Source of the DNA: Xanthobacteraceae bacterium
GTDB taxonomy: Bacteria; Pseudomonadota; Alphaproteobacteria; Rhizobiales; Xanthobacteraceae
DNA length: 64,000 nucleotides
NCBI GenBank assembly: GCA_030038995.1
Contig: JASHQS010000178.1
Location: 1-64,000, forward strand
Reading direction: 5' to 3'
Shown: piece after piece, positions 41,546 through 54,547 of the stretch
Layout: every line of letters starts with the position of its first letter
Numbering within the stretch: the stretch's first letter is position 1
Made by a program: the position numbers and the translations under genes
Notes under the pieces: model-generated
Told to the model about the DNA's origin: nothing
What the model saw: only the letters and a program-made list of their open reading frames with translations
The model's database searches: none

Positions 41546-42139
41546 ATGCCGATGATCCGGGAAACGATTGTTTCCACGGCGGACGACGCCGGACGAGTTC
41601 ATCTTGCGCCGATAGGCATCATTGCTGATGACGGCGGCTGGATCATTGCGCCGTTTCGCCCCTCCACTACGCTCGACAATCTGCGCGCCGTGCCGTTCGC
41701 GGCCGCCAATTTTACCGATGACGTTCGCATCTTTGCCGGCTGCCTGACCGGGCGTAGCCAATGGCCGACTACGCCGTGCACGGATATTCCGGTTCGGCGT
41801 CTTGCGGACTCGCTCGCGCACGTGGAACTGGCCGTCACCCGCATCACCGAGGATGAATTGAGGCCGCGATTTCACTGCCGCGTGTTGCGCACCGTCGCGC
41901 ACGCGCCCTTTAAGGGTTTCAACCGCGCCCAAGCGGCGGTCATCGAGGCGGCAATCCTGGTCAGTCGGCTCGGAATGCTGCCGCGCGACAAAGTCGAACG
42001 TGAGATGGCGTATCTGGAGATTGCGGTGACGAAGACCGCGTCCGCCACCGAGGAGGAGGCATGGAGCCGGCTGAAACAAGCGATAGCGGCATTCTACGCT
42101 GAGACAGAAGCAAACAAAACGCCGCTGGCCAACTCATGA
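41546..42139 (+). CDS. DUF447-family protein (H4MPT cluster)
   Basis: A 197-aa DUF447 protein with a flavin-reductase-like split barrel: IRETIVSTADDAGRVHLAPI, IIAPFRPSTTLDNLRAVPFA and AANFTDDVRIFAGCLTG. The C-terminal half (GFNRAQAAVIEAAILVSRLG) is a helical family extension. It is conserved in methanogens and H4MPT methylotrophs, with unknown reaction; FMN binding is plausible from the fold. It is the last gene of the 37.3-42.1 kb operon. Confidence 0.87.
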   Translation: MPMIRETIVSTADDAGRVHLAPIGIIADDGGWIIAPFRPSTTLDNLRAVPFAAANFTDDVRIFAGCLTGRSQWPTTPCTDIPVRRLADSLAHVELAVTRITEDELRPRFHCRVLRTVAHAPFKGFNRAQAAVIEAAILVSRLGMLPRDKVEREMAYLEIAVTKTASATEEEAWSRLKQAIAAFYAETEANKTPLANS

Positions 42140-42425
42140 GCGCTGGCCGCAGACGCCGACGAGGTCCGCCGGAGCGAGGAGTAGTTGTCCGCAAGCCGCA
42201 GTTTGCGTGATTTTGCATGGTAGATCGTATGTGCGCGCCAAGGTGCCAACCAGGCAGCGAAGCCGAGAAGTTCGGCGCTATCGATTTGAGCCGGTGCGGG
42301 AAGCGCTCAAAAGATAGCTTGGGAGAATACGCGGCCGGTCTTAGTGAGCTACACTGTTGGAAGCAGGCGAATGCGAGCCCGCGCGCGGGAGGCTGGCGCG
42401 CGGTCCGCTGGCCGGGGGAGGAACC
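42140..42425. other. Intergenic region upstream of the two-component genes
   Basis: No gene seen in 286 bp. It presumably holds the promoter of the histidine kinase gene. The end is very G-rich (GGCCGGGGGAGG), providing the strong ribosome site used by the kinase start. Confidence 0.5.
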
Positions 42426-43889: not shown

Positions 43890-44521
43890 CCCGCGTCCTG
43901 ATCGTGGACGATCATCCAATCGTGCTGCAGGGCTGCCGTCGCATGCTGCAGGATGCCGGGGTCGCCGAAGTGATCGAGGCACGCGACGTGGTCTCGGGCT
44001 ATCGGCTCTACCGCCGCAATTGCCCCGAGGTGATGATCGTCGATCTTGGCATGCAAGATAAGGGACTCGGCGGTCTGGCCCTTATCCGCCGCATCAACGC
44101 GCACAATCCGCGCGCTCGCATTCTCGTCTTCAGCATGCACAGCGATCCGGTCATCGTGGCCCGGGCGTTGCAAGCAGGCGCGATCGGTTACGTCGTCAAG
44201 GACGCGTCGGCAGAGAATTTCATGAAGGCATTCGAAAACGTCAGAGTTGGCTTGCCTTATCTCAGCAATGACCTTGCCACGCAGGTCGCGCTGGCCAATA
44301 TGCCGGCACGGCAGAATCCGCTGGCCGACCTGACGCCGCGCGAGTTGCAGACCTTGTCGCTGCTGGCCGAAGGCAAGCCCTACAGCCGTATCGCCGAGGA
44401 ACTCAACGTCAGCTACAAAACCGTCGCCAACGTGAGTGCCCAGCTCAAGCAGAAGCTCGATGCCCGCAATCTGCCCGAACTCATTCGTGCTGCGGTGCGG
44501 TTGGTGTCGATTGCCACCTGA
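43886..44521 (+). CDS. NarL/LuxR-family response regulator
   Basis: A 211-aa regulator. The receiver domain has the acidic pocket in VLIVDDHPIVLQGC, the phosphorylated Asp53 in VMIVDLGMQDKG and the conserved Lys in GYVVKDAS. The LuxR HTH domain is LTPRELQTLSLLAEGKPYSR followed by IAEELNVSYKTVANVSAQLK. It is coupled to the kinase by an overlapping stop and start. It probably binds promoters in this cluster. A decayed copy of its HTH lies about 90 bp downstream. Confidence 0.95.
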   Translation: MTRVLIVDDHPIVLQGCRRMLQDAGVAEVIEARDVVSGYRLYRRNCPEVMIVDLGMQDKGLGGLALIRRINAHNPRARILVFSMHSDPVIVARALQAGAIGYVVKDASAENFMKAFENVRVGLPYLSNDLATQVALANMPARQNPLADLTPRELQTLSLLAEGKPYSRIAEELNVSYKTVANVSAQLKQKLDARNLPELIRAAVRLVSIAT

Positions 44522-45174: not shown

Positions 45175-45891
45175 GTGAGGAGAAAGTTCATCGTCGCCGC
45201 AGCAATGGCGGTGCTGGCTGGTACCACAGATGCACTTGCCGCTGATCTTCCAACGCCAAGTCCTGCTGTCCCATTGCCTGCTGCCGCCTACAACTGGACC
45301 GGGTTCTACATCGGCATCAATGGCGGCTATGGCACGGGTAACAGCAATTGGTCGGACGGCGCTGTGGGGACGACCGGCAGCTTCCCCACGTCCGGCTTTC
45401 TCGTTGGTGGTACAGTCGGCGTCAACTACCAGATAGGGCAATACGTATTCGGCATCGAGGGCGACGGCGACTGGACCAATCTGCAGGGTAATACCGGCCC
45501 CACCTGCGGCGCCATTTCTGCGCTGGTGCCGCCCCCCGATAGTTGTCAAACCCAGAGCGAATGGCTGGCCACGGTGCGCGGCCGCGTCGGTTATGCCTTT
45601 GACCGTATGCTCTTCTACGGCACCGCCGGTGCAGCTTTCGGCAATATCCAAACCGGACTGAATCCACCGTCGACTTTCGACAGCAGCGTCGAGGCGGGCT
45701 GGACTGCCGGCGCCGGGCTTGAATTCGCTCTCACGCAAAATTGGAGCGCCAAAGTCGAATATCTCTTCGTTGATTTGCCGAACGCCGCATGCACCAGTGT
45801 GGCGAACTGCGGCGGCGCCGCGGGCTCTATTGTGAGCTTCAATGAAGGCGTCGTACGCGCCGGCGTCAATTTCAAATTCGGTTCGTGGTGA
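45175..45891 (+). CDS. Outer-membrane beta-barrel protein (Omp25/porin-like)
   Basis: A 238-aa outer-membrane protein of the Rhizobiales Omp25/RopB type. A signal peptide (AAAMAVLAGTTDALAADLPT) is followed by a Pro-rich stretch, then an eight-strand barrel beginning NWTGFYIGINGGYGTGNSNW and ending VVRAGVNFKFGSW, with the C-terminal aromatic residue required for assembly. GTG 45175 is the start, with GGGAGAG seven bases before. It is paralogous to the C-terminal domain of the TonB receptor immediately downstream. Confidence 0.9.
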   Translation: MRRKFIVAAAMAVLAGTTDALAADLPTPSPAVPLPAAAYNWTGFYIGINGGYGTGNSNWSDGAVGTTGSFPTSGFLVGGTVGVNYQIGQYVFGIEGDGDWTNLQGNTGPTCGAISALVPPPDSCQTQSEWLATVRGRVGYAFDRMLFYGTAGAAFGNIQTGLNPPSTFDSSVEAGWTAGAGLEFALTQNWSAKVEYLFVDLPNAACTSVANCGGAAGSIVSFNEGVVRAGVNFKFGSW

Positions 45892-45899
45892 GGGGGCAC

Positions 45900-48800
45900 A
45901 TGGGCAACGTTGCAGGTCTGGCTGGCCGAACAAGGACGTCGGTCGGGGAGGCGGCGCTTCGCGGACTGCTTCGGGCACTCCCAGTGGTGTTGGCAATTGC
46001 ACCAAGAACCGTTGCGGCGCAGGAAGCTTCGGGCTCGAGTGGGAGTTCAAGCGCGGTAACGCTTCCCGAGATCCACGTGATCGCGACCACCCCGGTTCCG
46101 CAGACAGCCCGCCCGCGGCGCGCTGCTCGAGCTGCAGGTCCGGCGTCCCGGGCTCCCGCGGCTGCGGCTCCTGCGCCCGCGGAGGCGCCCGCAACGCAAT
46201 CCATACCTGGCGCCGTCGACCAGGACAAAATCCCATCCAATGTCCAGGTGGTTGGATCTTCCGCTTTCGAGTCCACGAAGTCGCCCGACCTTTTGCAGTC
46301 AATGTTCCAGGCACTGCCCGGCGTTTCCTTGGGCGACCAGACCGGCAATCAATTCCAGCTTGACCTCAATTACCGCGGCTTTACCGCTTCCCCGGTCATT
46401 GGCACGCCGCAGGGACTGGCTGTCTATCAGAACGGGGTGCGCATCAACGAGGTTTTTGGTGACATCGTCAATTGGGACTTCATCCCGCAGAAAGCCATTA
46501 ATAGCCTGACCCTGTACCCGAGCAATCCGGTCTTCGGACTGAACGCGACCGGCGGCGCGCTGTCGTTCGATATGAAAAATGGCTTCACCTATCATGGTGT
46601 CGAAACCGAATTAAGCGGTGGATCATATGGACGGGTCGGCACGTCGGTACAGGCCGGCGGCCAAGTCGGAAACTTCTCCGGCTACATCGCGGCCGATGCC
46701 ATCGACGATGCCGGCTGGCGTCTGGACTCTGCATCCTCAGTGCGCCGCATTTACACCGATCTTGGCGCCCTCGGTGACAACAATACCGAATTCCACATCA
46801 CTTTCACCGGCGCCGATAACACCTTCGGTGCTGCCGCCGCCACTCCAGTGCAGTTGCTGAGCCAGAATTGGGCGAGCATCTATACGGTTCCCCAAACAAC
46901 GCATAATCAACTTGCGTTCCTGACCGCCAGTGCAAGCTGGAAGCCGACCGACACCTGGACCTATCAGGCTGTCGCCTACTATCGCCATTTTGATCAAGCC
47001 CATGTCGACGGCAATGGCACGAACGCCGACAACACGCCAGGATGCTTGACCGGGAGCCCTACGGATCCGATCTGCTTTGATAACCCCAACGGCACGACTT
47101 CTCCCCTCGTCACAACGACGGGACAGAATGTCCCGAACTCCGGTGCTCTGGGCTTTCCGAATGTCTTGGGCGAAATCGACCGAACCTGGACGACGACCGA
47201 CAGCTTCGGCGGCTCGGTCCAGGCGGCGTCTTCGGAGCGAGTATTCGGTCACAACAACAACTTCACGGTGGGCCTAAGCGTCGATCGCGGGCTGGTGCAG
47301 TTCTCGACCACGAGCGAGCTGGGAACGGTCAACCCCGATACGTATCCGTTCGTCATCGGCAGCGGCCTCTTCATCGACCAGCCTTCGTCCGCTGGCATAG
47401 GGGGCGTCGCGCCGGTCGGCCTGGGTGCAACGACGCTCTATACCGGCCTCTACGCGACCGACACGTTCGATCTCACCCCGCGTCTATCGCTCACCGCAGG
47501 GGCTCGTTACAACATCGCCCAAATCAATTTGACGGACGAATTGGGCAATGACTCCGAACTTAATGGCAACGACACCTTCGCTCATTTCAATCCCATGATC
47601 GGCGCAACCTATAAGATCACACCGAACCTCACGCTCTATGGCGATTATGCGATTGCAAATCGCGCGCCAACACCCTTGGAATTGGAGTGTTCCGACCCGT
47701 CGCGGCCATGCCTGATCGATAACGCTCTTGTTGGCGATCCCCCTCTGCAACAAGTGGTGACATACACCTATGAAGCCGGCTTGCGCGGCCAATTCGACAT
47801 CGCCAGCGGGCATGCGAATTGGAGCGTGGGCGCTTACCACGCGCTCAATACCAACGACATCATAGACATACTAACCCCGCAATCGGTGGCCATAGGACGC
47901 GAGTTTTTTCAGAACGCCGGCGATACGCTGCGGCAGGGCATCGAAGCCAACGCGTCGTACAAATGGGATCGCTTTAACATCTATGCCAACTACACCTACG
48001 TCGACGCCACATTCTTGAGCGCCTTGCTTCTGCCCTCGACGGTGAACGCAAGCGGCACCCAGAACGTGGTTCCCGGCGATCATCTGACCGGCATTCCCGA
48101 CTTCCGCTTCAAGCTTGGCGGGGAATACCAGATCACCGCTCCATGGAAACTCGGCGCCGATCTTAACGTAGTCGGCAGCCAGTGGCTGGTTGGCGATGAG
48201 TCGAACCAGCTCCCCCAAGTGCCGGCTTATTGGGTGGTGAACTTGCACTCGTCCTATAAGATTTCGGATAACATCGAGGTGTTCGGGCTGATACGCAATT
48301 TATTCAATCAACGCTACTACACGTACGGGCTATTAACGGATGTCACCGAGTTTGGTTATCTGAATCTGACCGACGACCGCACCTTCCTCCCCGGCATGCC
48401 GTTTGCCGCCTATGTGGGAGTGAAGGGGACGCTCCCCTCTGGAGGACCGGCATTCGCCGCCTTTGGTTCGCGGCCGACAATTACAAAAGCGCCGCCTGCC
48501 GGCGTGACGTCGCCCTTCGTTGATTGGACCGGGGTCTACCTTGGCGTCAACGCCGGCTATAGCTTCGGGGGCAGCGATTGGTCGGATAGCGTGACCGGCA
48601 GCTCGAGCGGCAGCTTCGGCACCTCCGGTTTTGCTTTCGGCGGGACGCTTGGCGCCAATTACCAGACCGGCTGGCTGGTGTTCGGCGTCGAGGCCGATGG
48701 CGATTGGACCGACGCCAGCGGTTTCGGCACCTTCACCAGCGCCAGCCTCTGCGCCGGAGGTTGCCTGACCGGCAATAGCTGGCTCGCCACCGTGCGTGGC

Positions 48801-49121
48801 CGCGCCGGCTATGCTTTCGACCGCTTTCTCGTCTACGGCACCGGCGGCGCCGCTTTCGGCAATGTCCAGGCGAGCTTCTCGAACGACCCGGTGAGCAGCG
48901 CGACTGAGGCAGGCTGGACCGCAGGTGCCGGCGTCGAGGTCGCTTTAGATCGCAATTGGAGCGCCAAGGCCGAATATCTCTTCGTCGACCTTGCCAACGG
49001 GTCCTGCACCGCGGATTGCGCCATCGCAAACGCCAACGGACCGCCGTTAATTCCTAACGTCGCCGTAAAATTCGACGAGAGCATCGTGCGCGGAGGCGTC
49101 AATTACAGATTTACGTTTTAG
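45900..49121 (+). CDS. TonB-dependent receptor with an additional C-terminal Omp25-like barrel
   Basis: A 1073-aa outer-membrane protein. Residues 1-50 are the leader; a Pro/Ala-rich stretch follows; the plug domain starts near IPSNVQVVGSSAFESTKSPD with NYRGFTASPVIGTPQGLAVY. The large barrel runs to about residue 840 (VFGLIRNLFNQRYYTYGLLT; GMPFAAYVGVKGTL), where ordinary receptors end. A linker follows, then a complete second barrel (about 865-1073), VDWTGVYLGVNAGYSFGGSD to GGVNYRFTF, closely related to the protein encoded just upstream. TonB receptors import metal complexes. Near xoxF, a lanthanide chelate is a fair guess, but unproven. The start is ATG 45900, with GAGGGGG close before it. 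Confidence 0.9.
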   Translation: MGNVAGLAGRTRTSVGEAALRGLLRALPVVLAIAPRTVAAQEASGSSGSSSAVTLPEIHVIATTPVPQTARPRRAARAAGPASRAPAAAAPAPAEAPATQSIPGAVDQDKIPSNVQVVGSSAFESTKSPDLLQSMFQALPGVSLGDQTGNQFQLDLNYRGFTASPVIGTPQGLAVYQNGVRINEVFGDIVNWDFIPQKAINSLTLYPSNPVFGLNATGGALSFDMKNGFTYHGVETELSGGSYGRVGTSVQAGGQVGNFSGYIAADAIDDAGWRLDSASSVRRIYTDLGALGDNNTEFHITFTGADNTFGAAAATPVQLLSQNWASIYTVPQTTHNQLAFLTASASWKPTDTWTYQAVAYYRHFDQAHVDGNGTNADNTPGCLTGSPTDPICFDNPNGTTSPLVTTTGQNVPNSGALGFPNVLGEIDRTWTTTDSFGGSVQAASSERVFGHNNNFTVGLSVDRGLVQFSTTSELGTVNPDTYPFVIGSGLFIDQPSSAGIGGVAPVGLGATTLYTGLYATDTFDLTPRLSLTAGARYNIAQINLTDELGNDSELNGNDTFAHFNPMIGATYKITPNLTLYGDYAIANRAPTPLELECSDPSRPCLIDNALVGDPPLQQVVTYTYEAGLRGQFDIASGHANWSVGAYHALNTNDIIDILTPQSVAIGREFFQNAGDTLRQGIEANASYKWDRFNIYANYTYVDATFLSALLLPSTVNASGTQNVVPGDHLTGIPDFRFKLGGEYQITAPWKLGADLNVVGSQWLVGDESNQLPQVPAYWVVNLHSSYKISDNIEVFGLIRNLFNQRYYTYGLLTDVTEFGYLNLTDDRTFLPGMPFAAYVGVKGTLPSGGPAFAAFGSRPTITKAPPAGVTSPFVDWTGVYLGVNAGYSFGGSDWSDSVTGSSSGSFGTSGFAFGGTLGANYQTGWLVFGVEADGDWTDASGFGTFTSASLCAGGCLTGNSWLATVRGRAGYAFDRFLVYGTGGAAFGNVQASFSNDPVSSATEAGWTAGAGVEVALDRNWSAKAEYLFVDLANGSCTADCAIANANGPPLIPNVAVKFDESIVRGGVNYRFTF

Positions 49122-51269: not shown

Positions 51270-51998
51270 CTAGCCACTCACCGCAGCGACCCGCAGCTTA
51301 TCACGAATGACGGCAAGTTCGGCGGCAGAGCGCGGACTGCGCGGGCGCTCGATAGGGACTTCTGCGATCACGCGCGCCGGCGACGGCGAGAGCAGGAAGA
51401 CCCGGTCGGCGAGGCCAATCGCCTCCTCGATGCTGTGCGTGACCAAGAGCGTGGTGGTCGGCCGGCGCGATATCAGCTCGATGAGTTCCGCGCGCAATCT
51501 TTCGACCAGCGCGGCATCGAGCGAGACGAACGGTTCGTCGAGCGCCAGCAGCTCGGGTTCGAACGCAAACGCGCGCGCCAAGGCGACGCGGCGGGCGAGG
51601 CCGAGCGACAATTCGCCGGGATAATGGCGCCGGTGAGCGCTGAGACCGAGCGTCGCGAACAGCGTACTCAGCGTCGCCTCGCCAGCTTGCGGCGCGGCCA
51701 GACGGACATTTTCTTCGACCGTGCGCCAGGGCAACAGCCGCGGTTCCTGGAATACGATACCGAGCCTGCCGTGCGCCGGCAGCAGGACGCTGCCGTCGAA
51801 GTCTCGGTCGAGGCCGACGATGATCCGCAGCAGCGTCGTCTTGCCGCATCCCGATGGACCGACGACAGCGGCGACCTCGCCATTCGCCAGCGAGAATGAA
51901 ATCTCGCCGAGCACGTGCAGACGCCCGCCGGAAGCGACGCGATAGGACTTGTGCCTGATATGAAGTTCAAGCTGGCCTGATTCGCCAGCGGGAGACAT
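51270..51998 (-). CDS. ABC transporter ATPase, SsuB/TauB-like
   Basis: A 242-aa ATPase with Walker A VVGPSGCGKTTLLRIIVG, Q-loop IVFQEPRLLPWRTVEENV and Walker B ELLALDEPFVSLDAALVERL. The signature is LSLGLARRVALARAF, so LSLGL replaces the usual LSGGQ; this weakens but need not abolish activity. Start ATG 51998 (MSPAGESGQ) lies inside the permease gene, a 32-bp overlap. It forms an importer of the sulfonate/taurine/nitrate type with the next two genes upstream. Confidence 0.87.
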   Translation of the reverse strand: MSPAGESGQLELHIRHKSYRVASGGRLHVLGEISFSLANGEVAAVVGPSGCGKTTLLRIIVGLDRDFDGSVLLPAHGRLGIVFQEPRLLPWRTVEENVRLAAPQAGEATLSTLFATLGLSAHRRHYPGELSLGLARRVALARAFAFEPELLALDEPFVSLDAALVERLRAELIELISRRPTTTLLVTHSIEEAIGLADRVFLLSPSPARVIAEVPIERPRSPRSAAELAVIRDKLRVAAVSG

Positions 51999-52713
51999 GT
52001 CGTTCAAACGGCTGCACCAGGAATGTTTCAATCGCGAGCATGACCACGACGAAGGTCAATGCATAGGCCAAGATTCGAGTCACGTCGAATAATTGGAACG
52101 CAACTCCGATTTCGAAACCGACCCCGTTGGGCCGTCCGAGCAGCTCGACGATCAGCACGATCTTCCAAACCAGCGACAGGCCGGAACGAGTCGCCGCGGC
52201 CAGGTAGGGAGCGAGCTGCGGCATCGTCACGTGGCGCAGCCGCGTCCAGCCGCTCATGCGAAACACCGTCGCCATTTCATCGAGCGAAGGATCGAGCGCC
52301 CGCGCACCTTCCCGGACCGTGACGATGGCAATCGGCAGTTTGTTCAAGGCGACGGCAATAAGTGCCGCACTTTCCGTCAATCCGGCCCAGACATAAGCGA
52401 GCACGATGATCACCAGTGCGGGCAGGTTGAGCAACACGACGAGCCAAGGGTCGGCAAGTCGATCGATAACGGGCATTCGGCCCATGGCGAGGCCGATCAC
52501 GGTGCCGAACGCCATGGCAATCGTGAACGACGCGGCAACGCGCAGCAGCGTCACGCCGAGATTGAACGCGAGCGCGCCGGAACGCGCTTCATTGATGATA
52601 GCGAGCGCGACCGTTTGCGGCGCGGGTAGCAGCCGCGAGCCGACCAGGTGCGAACCGACAAGCCATGCCGCGACCAATAGCGCGACGGAGCCAAGGCGCA
52701 GCGCCGGATTCAT
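51967..52713 (-). CDS. ABC transporter permease, SsuC-like
   Basis: A 248-aa inner-membrane permease with about six helices, for example LRLGSVALLVAAWLVGSHLV and PWLVVLLNLPALVIIVLAYV. The coupling loop region is FRMSGWTRLRHVTMPQLAPY, a close variant of the EAA motif. It overlaps the binding-protein gene by 4 bp upstream and the ATPase gene downstream, so the three genes form one operon. Confidence 0.9.
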   Translation of the reverse strand: MNPALRLGSVALLVAAWLVGSHLVGSRLLPAPQTVALAIINEARSGALAFNLGVTLLRVAASFTIAMAFGTVIGLAMGRMPVIDRLADPWLVVLLNLPALVIIVLAYVWAGLTESAALIAVALNKLPIAIVTVREGARALDPSLDEMATVFRMSGWTRLRHVTMPQLAPYLAAATRSGLSLVWKIVLIVELLGRPNGVGFEIGVAFQLFDVTRILAYALTFVVVMLAIETFLVQPFERHVSRWRIRPA

Positions 52714-53744
52714 TCGCCGGGGTCCGCGCTATAAAAAGTGCCGGGAGCGAGCGCTTGTGCAGGGCCGACGAGCTCGGATCCGCCGATGTGTGCCAGCACG
52801 CGATAGAGCGCTTGCGCGTCGGCGACCTCGTCGGCGAGCGGCCGGTTGGGAATTCCCTCGGCATAGCGCCGGCGGTAGATGTCGAGTGCGGCGTTGTCGG
52901 TGACCCCGATGCGGGCAGCGAGCCGCTGCCATTCGGCCGGCGAACCGGCGAGGATCTTCTTTGCTTTTTCGGTCAGGGAAAAGAAGCGGTCAAGCAACGC
53001 GCGGTGACGTTCCGCCCAGCGGCCGTGAAACACGTAGCCGATCATCGGCACCGGCCCGGCCGCCCCGAGCCGCTTCATGACGTCCGCCATGGTGATGGCG
53101 CGCCGCATGCCCCGGGCTTCGAGGCCCGCGCAAAAATTCCAGAACGTCAGGGTCGCGTCGGTTTTGCCTTGCAACAGCATCGCTGAGAGGAGAGGCGGTG
53201 CGGCATAGGAAATCGCAGCCTGCCTCTTGAGATCGACGCCCGATTGCTGCGCCAATGCTTGCAGCAACAGCCAGCTTTTATCGAGCGGGCCGCCAGCGAC
53301 GCCGAGCCTCTTGCCTTTCAGATCGCCAATGTCCTTGATCGGCGAGCCGTCGGGCACCATGACGGCGCCGAGCGTGCTCGAATAAGGAGAGAACACAAGG
53401 TCATCACCGAGCCCGCGCTCACGCGCGACCCACAGCCAGTCCGACAAGATCAGGTCGGCCGAGCCGCCTTCGAGCGCGATTTGCCCGGCCTCCGTGCTGG
53501 CAAGCTCGGTGGTCTCGATGTTCAAATCGGCTTGCCGGTCGAGCCCATGGGCACGAATGATCGCCAGTTCCCACGCCAGCGTGCCGGTTTTCTGCGCGGC
53601 AATGCGAATAGTGTCGGCGGCCTGCGCGCGCGCTGACCCGGCCACGCCGAACGACCCGGTGAGCAAGATCGACAAAGCCAAGATCTGCCTGCGCCGCAAT
53701 TGCATGCGCTGGGAACTCTCGCAAATTCGCGCTAGCGCGCTCAT
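52710..53744 (-). CDS. ABC transporter substrate-binding protein, SsuA-like
   Basis: A 344-aa periplasmic protein with a twin-basic leader (LRRRQILALSILLTGSFGVA) and the NMT1/SsuA fold (IRIAAQKTGTLAWELAIIRA; LASTEAGQIALEGGSADLIL; LKGKRLGVAGGPLDKSWLLL). Start ATG 53744 follows GGGGAG eight bases upstream. The ligand is not determinable; sulfonate, pyrimidine or another small organic compound is possible. It is the first gene of the importer operon and lies about 80 bp downstream of a PqqA-like peptide sequence on the same strand. Confidence 0.9.
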   Translation of the reverse strand: MSALARICESSQRMQLRRRQILALSILLTGSFGVAGSARAQAADTIRIAAQKTGTLAWELAIIRAHGLDRQADLNIETTELASTEAGQIALEGGSADLILSDWLWVARERGLGDDLVFSPYSSTLGAVMVPDGSPIKDIGDLKGKRLGVAGGPLDKSWLLLQALAQQSGVDLKRQAAISYAAPPLLSAMLLQGKTDATLTFWNFCAGLEARGMRRAITMADVMKRLGAAGPVPMIGYVFHGRWAERHRALLDRFFSLTEKAKKILAGSPAEWQRLAARIGVTDNAALDIYRRRYAEGIPNRPLADEVADAQALYRVLAHIGGSELVGPAQALAPGTFYSADPGE

Positions 53745-53823
53745 CGCATTCTCCCCGCCGCTGCGCCGAGAATGATCGCGTCCAAACAAGCCATTCGAGC
53801 CCCAGCGGTGCGAGCCCGGATAC

Positions 53824-53901
53824 TCAGAATTCGGGCGACAAATAGCCGTTAATGTCGAGCCCGATGCATGTTTCGATGAGGGCCGGCGCTGTCCAAGCTA
53901 C
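53824..53901 (-). pseudogene. PqqA-like precursor peptide, no standard start codon
   Basis: Reading from 53901: a GTA codon, then AWTAPALIETCIGLDINGYL and SPEF before TGA, 25 codons in all. This matches PqqA, the peptide precursor of pyrroloquinoline quinone: Trp3, Ala5-Pro6, Glu10, Gly14 and Tyr20 all sit at the right positions, and length is typical. Two things differ. The residue that PqqE would cross-link to Tyr20 is Asp16 rather than Glu16. The codon at the expected start is GTA, although GGGAGG lies five bases before it. It is therefore either a relic or a peptide begun elsewhere (a TTG in frame 20 codons upstream). No pqqBCDE is in the window. Confidence 0.7.
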
Positions 53902-54151
53902 GGTTTCCTCCCATGCTCTGCGGCTTTGCCAGAACTGAGGCGGAGCATACAAGTAAATCGCCGCAGCGTCCGAAGACAAGGGCCTTCTCAAGCCAAGCGT
54001 CGCGTGTTTGGCCTTCCGCCGGCGGGGGAGTTCCCTTTCCGCCGCGAGCTGTTGTAGTATCGCGTCGGGGTACGGCGCGCACAGCCAGATGGATTCTGAT
54101 GCGGTTATCGCCCGTGCGAACGCTCAACGGGGGAACGATAACGGGGAAATG
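53902..54151. other. Intergenic region between the PqqA-like sequence and cytochrome c
   Basis: 250 bp between divergent units. It carries the ribosome site of the PqqA-like sequence (GGGAGG near 53907-53912) on the minus strand and the CGGGGAAATG start region of the cytochrome on the plus strand. Otherwise no gene is seen. Confidence 0.5.
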
Positions 54152-54547
54152 ATGATAATGTACAAAATGTTGACCATCGTGGGTGCAATCTTGGCCACCT
54201 CCGTTACGGCCACTTTCGCGCAGGATCCGCAGAAGGGCGAAATCGTCTTCCATATCTGCCTGGCCTGCCATTCCATCGGCCCGGGCGCAGAAAATAAAGT
54301 CGGCCCCGAACTTAATGGCCTGGACGGCCGCCATTCGGGCAGCGCTCCGAACTATGACTACTCAGATGCCAACAAAAAGTCGGGCATCGTCTGGAATGAA
54401 GCGAATTTCAAAAGATATATCCATGACCCTCAGGCAATGGTGCCGGGCACCAAAATGCTTTTCCCCGGCATCAAGGACGACCAACAAGTCAATGACCTGT
54501 GGGCTTACGTTTCACAGTTCAATGCAGATGGCAGCAAGAAGAAATAG
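54152..54547 (+). CDS. Class I c-type cytochrome (cytochrome c2-like)
   Basis: A 131-aa exported cytochrome. Signal peptide (MLTIVGAILATSVTATFAQD) then GEIVFHICLACHSIGPGAEN with the haem motif CLACH, KVGPELNGLDGRHSG and MVPGTKMLFPGIKDDQQVND, which holds the likely Met ligand. It could accept electrons from the XoxG cytochrome and pass them to the terminal oxidase. Three in-frame ATGs (54149, 54152, 54158) are close; 54152 gives the best spacing to GGGG. It is the last methylotrophy-like gene before the attachment-like repeat. Confidence 0.9.
   Translation: MIMYKMLTIVGAILATSVTATFAQDPQKGEIVFHICLACHSIGPGAENKVGPELNGLDGRHSGSAPNYDYSDANKKSGIVWNEANFKRYIHDPQAMVPGTKMLFPGIKDDQQVNDLWAYVSQFNADGSKKK

Follow-up and report, generated by a model that had tools for sequence, protein, structure and literature searches.

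Does a PqqA-like peptide that carries Asp in place of the cross-linked Glu16, and GTA where a start codon is expected, point to a new peptide product, or is it what remains of an ordinary PQQ precursor gene? The locus lies in a window of 64,000 nucleotides, the whole stretch of DNA analyzed here, from a draft genome (G000) of 4.6 Mb in 316 contigs. We conclude that the stretch is very probably a pqqA1 pseudogene, stranded by the deletion of its operon, and not the start of a new peptide pathway.

A PqqA-like frame without a start codon

The frame runs from 53901 to 53824 on the minus strand (GTA GCT TGG ... TTC TGA) and reads V-A-W-T ... S-P-E-F-stop. It is listed here with the ribosome-binding-like sequence ahead of it.

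53824..53901 (-): pqqA1 pseudogene in our reading, (V)AWTAPALIETCIGLDINGYLSPEF followed by a stop, GTA replacing ATG and Asp replacing Glu16; based on profiles and synteny with G014
53907..53912 (-): GGGAGG, Shine-Dalgarno-like, 5 bases before the GTA

The minus-strand translation bears out the residues given in the preliminary description, namely, Trp3, Pro6, Glu10, Gly14, Asp16, and Tyr20, and GGGAGG is found five bases before GTA as described (GGGAGG-AAACC); relatives carry GGAGG/AGGA-like sequences at the same site. The peptide shares with PqqA (PF08042, TIGR02107) its length as well as Trp3, Pro6, Glu10, Cys12, Gly14, and Tyr20. It differs in the missing start codon and in the cross-linked pair Glu16/Tyr20, which is incomplete (Asp16 with Tyr20), and it reaches neither of the curated profile cut-offs, scoring 19.8 bits against PF08042 (E 8e-4), just below the cut-off of 21.1, and 15.9 bits against TIGR02107, where the cut-off is 20. 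Though below cut-off, the proposed likeness to PqqA stands above chance, as judged from the Pfam E value of 8e-4 and the syntenic position described below. In a six-frame search of its own whole genome, the frame was the third of three matches (E 0.038). Plasmid records searched with the peptide returned ordinary pqqA-like matches only, at 36-46% identity, and solved structures gave no match.

What disables the frame is the loss of its start; internal stops and frameshifts are absent. Codon 1 is GTA with no plausible in-frame start nearby, and all other copies found in the genus with an intact pqqA frame begin with ATG.

Synteny and the scar of a deleted operon

The same-genus genome G014 (locus L041) carries, in order, a divergent cytochrome c-550 gene, an intact pqqA1 (MAWTAPILVEVCIGLEINGYLPAEF), pqqB, pqqC, pqqD, pqqE, and the genes for a substrate-binding protein (SBP), a permease, and an ATPase. 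In the window, the cytochrome c gene and the SBP, permease, and ATPase genes recur in the G014 order; between them lies the peptide, at the exact syntenic spot of the intact pqqA, and pqqBCDE is missing.

54149..54547 (+): cytochrome c-550 (CycA-like), the divergent neighbor marking the ancestral pqq operon position
53741..53794 (-): deletion scar, the first 14 pqqB codons (MACLDAIILGAAAG) joined to the last pqqE codons (Met-Arg-stop), together MACLDAIILGAAAGRMR and a stop
52713..53744 (-): NMT1/SsuA-like SBP, its ATG overlapping the former pqqE stop codon
51970..52713 (-): ABC permease, same operon as SBP
51273..52031 (-): ABC ATPase, same operon as SBP

The cytochrome c-550 protein is 83-95% identical to those beside pqqA1/pqqB in G014 and in two further relatives, G005 and G017. 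At the DNA level, the alignment of window and G014 reaches from the cytochrome c gene across the peptide to the start of pqqB (71% over 831 bases) and then jumps on the G014 contig from 5929 to 2864, a loss of about 3.06 kb from the window. Alignments to the pqqB and pqqE/SBP junctions of G014, G005, G008, and contig C22 of the window's own genome define the scar and place its breakpoint at about 53749-53753. The joint, which reads ATG GCT TGT TTG GAC GCG ATC ATT CTC GGC GCA GCG GCG GGG AGA ATG CGA TGA, fuses the beginning of PqqB (MDRLNAIVLGAAAG in C22) to the Met-Arg-stop end of PqqE; as in G014, this stop overlaps the start of SBP. The open reading frame list gives SBP a TTG start at 53789, from which the frame crosses the pqqB stub out of register, and this is unlikely to be the real start.

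This pqqB'-'pqqE scar is the strongest single evidence that the peptide is an operon remnant. The peptide, like PqqA in its usual setting, precedes pqqB, here only its remains, and is divergent from cytochrome c; it differs in that the pqqBCDE genes behind it have been deleted. The preliminary description of a cluster without pqqBCDE is right in that pqqB, C, D, and E found no window match by tblastn at 1e-15, and needs amending for the 14-codon pqqB stub directly downstream of the peptide, which is below the reach of that search.

In the preferred explanation, pqqA1 once headed a pqqABCDE operon that continued into the transporter genes for SBP, permease, and ATPase. A deletion within it, about 3.06 kb long, removed pqqBCDE in this lineage and spared pqqA1, 14 codons of pqqB, and the end of pqqE. 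The pqqA1 frame has lost its ATG and Glu16 as well.

Two further pqqA copies in the same genome

A comparison with the genome's true pqqA operon had been proposed, and that operon was found: the genome's only complete pqqBCDE set lies on contig C22 (L004) together with two more pqqA copies. C22 pqqA1 (MAWTAPILIEVCIGLEINGDLAPEF and a stop, L004:4090-4167) has a good start and heads the complete pqqBCDE; since its Tyr20 has changed to Asp, it should not yield PQQ. C22 pqqA2 (MAWTTPVLVETCIGLEINGYLPPDEPDEGEF and a stop), situated behind pqqE, is normal, with Glu16 and Tyr20 both present. Among the three pqqA copies in the genome, only pqqA2 combines a start with both cross-linking residues, and the genome holds one close pqqE match. 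In Acinetobacter calcoaceticus, PQQ is not made if the glutamate is changed to aspartate or the tyrosine to phenylalanine (PMC2294125), a tyrosine requirement that bears also on C22 pqqA1, where the tyrosine is gone. PQQ is presumably supplied by the C22 operon, with the intact pqqA2 behind pqqE as its source.

C22 pqqA2 carries about 250 bases of flank shared with the kinase-side pqqA2 of relatives, and between pqqE and pqqA2 (L004:7336-7428) lies a 93-base fragment of a response-regulator gene (window 44302-44394), a scar left by a large deletion within the C22 cluster. From this flank and fragment, C22 resembles another version of the entire cluster with its transporter part deleted, and the window resembles the complementary deletion. 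It may have arisen by duplication or have come from a sister lineage. The C22 pqq genes are 90.7% identical to G014 versus 89.0% to G005; the GGDEF gene at its flank has its nearest counterparts in G008 (91%) and G005 (90%), as do the genes of the window itself, which argues that C22 belongs to the window's genome, with some chance left for a co-binned close strain. When the empty site of the C22 pqq cluster was sought in relatives, the GGDEF gene proved conserved and the sequence beyond it different.

Parallel decay in relatives

The window is not alone in its damage. In G005 (L044:1200-1290, approximate), a 5-base insertion disrupts pqqA1, in which codon 16 moreover encodes Asp and codon 10 Ala, and in G017 (L045:10980-11080, approximate) it has suffered start loss and a frameshift. 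Both genomes retain pqqB, pqqC, and pqqE at the pqqA1 locus, and both have an intact pqqA2 beside a MoxY-like histidine kinase. G008 keeps pqqA2, and its contig ends before pqqA1. The corresponding pqqA2 site was located in the window:

42099..42181 (.): pqqA2 site of G005 and G008 beside the histidine kinase; pqqA2 absent in the window

Here, the kinase-side flanks of the window align to G005 and G008 and pqqA2 itself does not. A further layout is seen in G003 (L047), where pqqABC sits beside the histidine kinase and pqqE alone adjoins SBP, which suggests that the pqq operon has been rearranged within the genus.

We lean toward the view that the operon-heading pqqA is repeatedly lost in this clade (Tyr20 to Asp in C22, a frameshift in G005, start loss with a frameshift in G017, and start loss with Asp16 in the window) while the separate pqqA2 becomes the only precursor, a hand-over of the precursor gene in which the dead copy was possibly kept as promoter and leader.

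Asp16 and the pattern of substitution

Among 150 family genomes, the Asp16 motif pattern matched the window alone, and the Glu16 version of the same pattern gave 53 matches in 41 of the 150. The search for Asp16 variants with normal starts, another proposed check, returned none in these 150 genomes with the same motif pattern; the sole other Asp16 copy seen, that of G005, is frameshifted.

Compared with intact or near-intact pqqA1 copies, the window frame has fewer protein-changing differences than neutral (8 of 17 against 12 expected, P about 0.02; 7 of 16 against 11.4, P about 0.01), a deficit that shows past constraint common to all branches since the split. The changes specific to the window, with the start codon excluded, are protein-changing in 5 of 11 cases, which is too few to date the death of the gene and fits recent death or weak constraint alike.

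A probable live leader and the surrounding genes

Upstream of the frame lies a further conserved element.

53940..53985, approximate (-): conserved block ahead of the frame (CCCTTGTCTTCGGACGCTGCGGCGATTTACT) that can be read as a sigma-70-like promoter (CTTGTC, 17 bases, TTTACT)

The block is kept in five loci (window, C22, G014, G005, and G017), including those where pqqA1 is dead, and the relic alone stands between it and the SBP-permease-ATPase genes of the window. The simplest inference from these two observations is a dead frame inside a live leader: the block is probably a promoter kept for the downstream ABC operon, and what is still in use at this locus is most likely only promoter and leader, now driving the transporter genes.

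As the preliminary description had it, the setting is a PQQ-dependent methanol cluster, the window containing a PQQ-dependent dehydrogenase of the methanol/ethanol family and a MoxJ-type binding protein. Also present are TIGR03861 and TIGR03864 ABC subunits and a TonB receptor, a gene set that we take to resemble clusters of the lanthanide-utilization (lut) type. In the cluster genes that were inspected, we saw no separate maturase.

Beyond its receptor part, the TonB-receptor reading frame (window 45885-49118) continues for about 210 additional residues, its residues 867-1076 forming a C-terminal barrel-like part. A second copy of those residues (52% identical) lies just before the receptor gene, at window 45253-45879. 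The frame is apparently a receptor fused to a small outer-membrane-like protein, and its matches in G003 and G017 cover these parts incompletely.

Competing explanations

Some observations speak against a pseudogene: the frame has no internal stop, its Shine-Dalgarno-like sequence survives, and its protein-changing differences fall below neutral. The first two, with Tyr20 and the remaining motif kept and a PqqE available elsewhere in the genome, would suit a live PqqA variant translated at a low level from GTA, whose Asp16 is cross-linked by the C22 PqqE into a shorter-linked, non-PQQ product. Such a variant is very improbable: the start codon is absent, Asp16 was seen in no other intact gene across the 150 family genomes and its nearest copy is frameshifted, pqqBCDE has been deleted from behind the peptide, and the change from Glu to Asp abolishes PQQ synthesis (PMC2294125). 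The earlier suggestion of a PqqA-like peptide for a different product is likewise unsupported, with neither an Asp16 relative with a normal start in the 150 family genomes nor a separate maturase in the cluster genes inspected.

It is also very improbable that the orphan pqqA is functional and was misread in sequencing or assembly, its true start being ATG and its true codon 16 Glu. A draft in 316 contigs leaves slight room for a local assembly error at the peptide, and few base changes separate the window frame from an intact one; yet several independent errors would be needed within 78 bases, the frame has other unique changes, and the adjoining scar is independent evidence that the operon decayed. 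Scores just below both family cut-offs might suggest that an intergenic region matched by chance; this is refuted by the exact synteny with intact pqqA1 and by the unbroken nucleotide alignment that links the cytochrome c gene to pqqB across the peptide, which reduce its probability to a negligible level.

The pqqA1 pseudogene is thereby preferred, and we infer that the frame is not translated. The idea of a relic of a second pqqA, raised at the outset, is borne out by synteny, the deletion scar, and the parallel decay in relatives. The peptide was "overlooked" in the sense that the gene was passed over; the cause is that the gene is dead, not that annotation missed a working one.

Implications for PqqA families and PQQ supply

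Extra pqqA copies are familiar from other bacteria. Methylophilaceae carry 3-12 copies with a single pqqBCDE set (PMC4109929), and Methylorubrum extorquens AM1 has orphan pqqA2 and pqqA3 (PMC11317620). The window resembles these cases in holding an additional pqqA at a distance from the one pqqBCDE set. Those copies are described as genes, whereas the window copy is broken; it was left stranded from an operon copy and is not a dispersed extra.

With the pseudogene reading, what looked like a new PqqA chemistry disappears, and the case shows that a profile match just below the cut-off for PqqA can come from a remnant stranded by operon loss. That the operon pqqA decays and an orphan copy stays intact is of modest interest for PQQ supply in methylotrophs.
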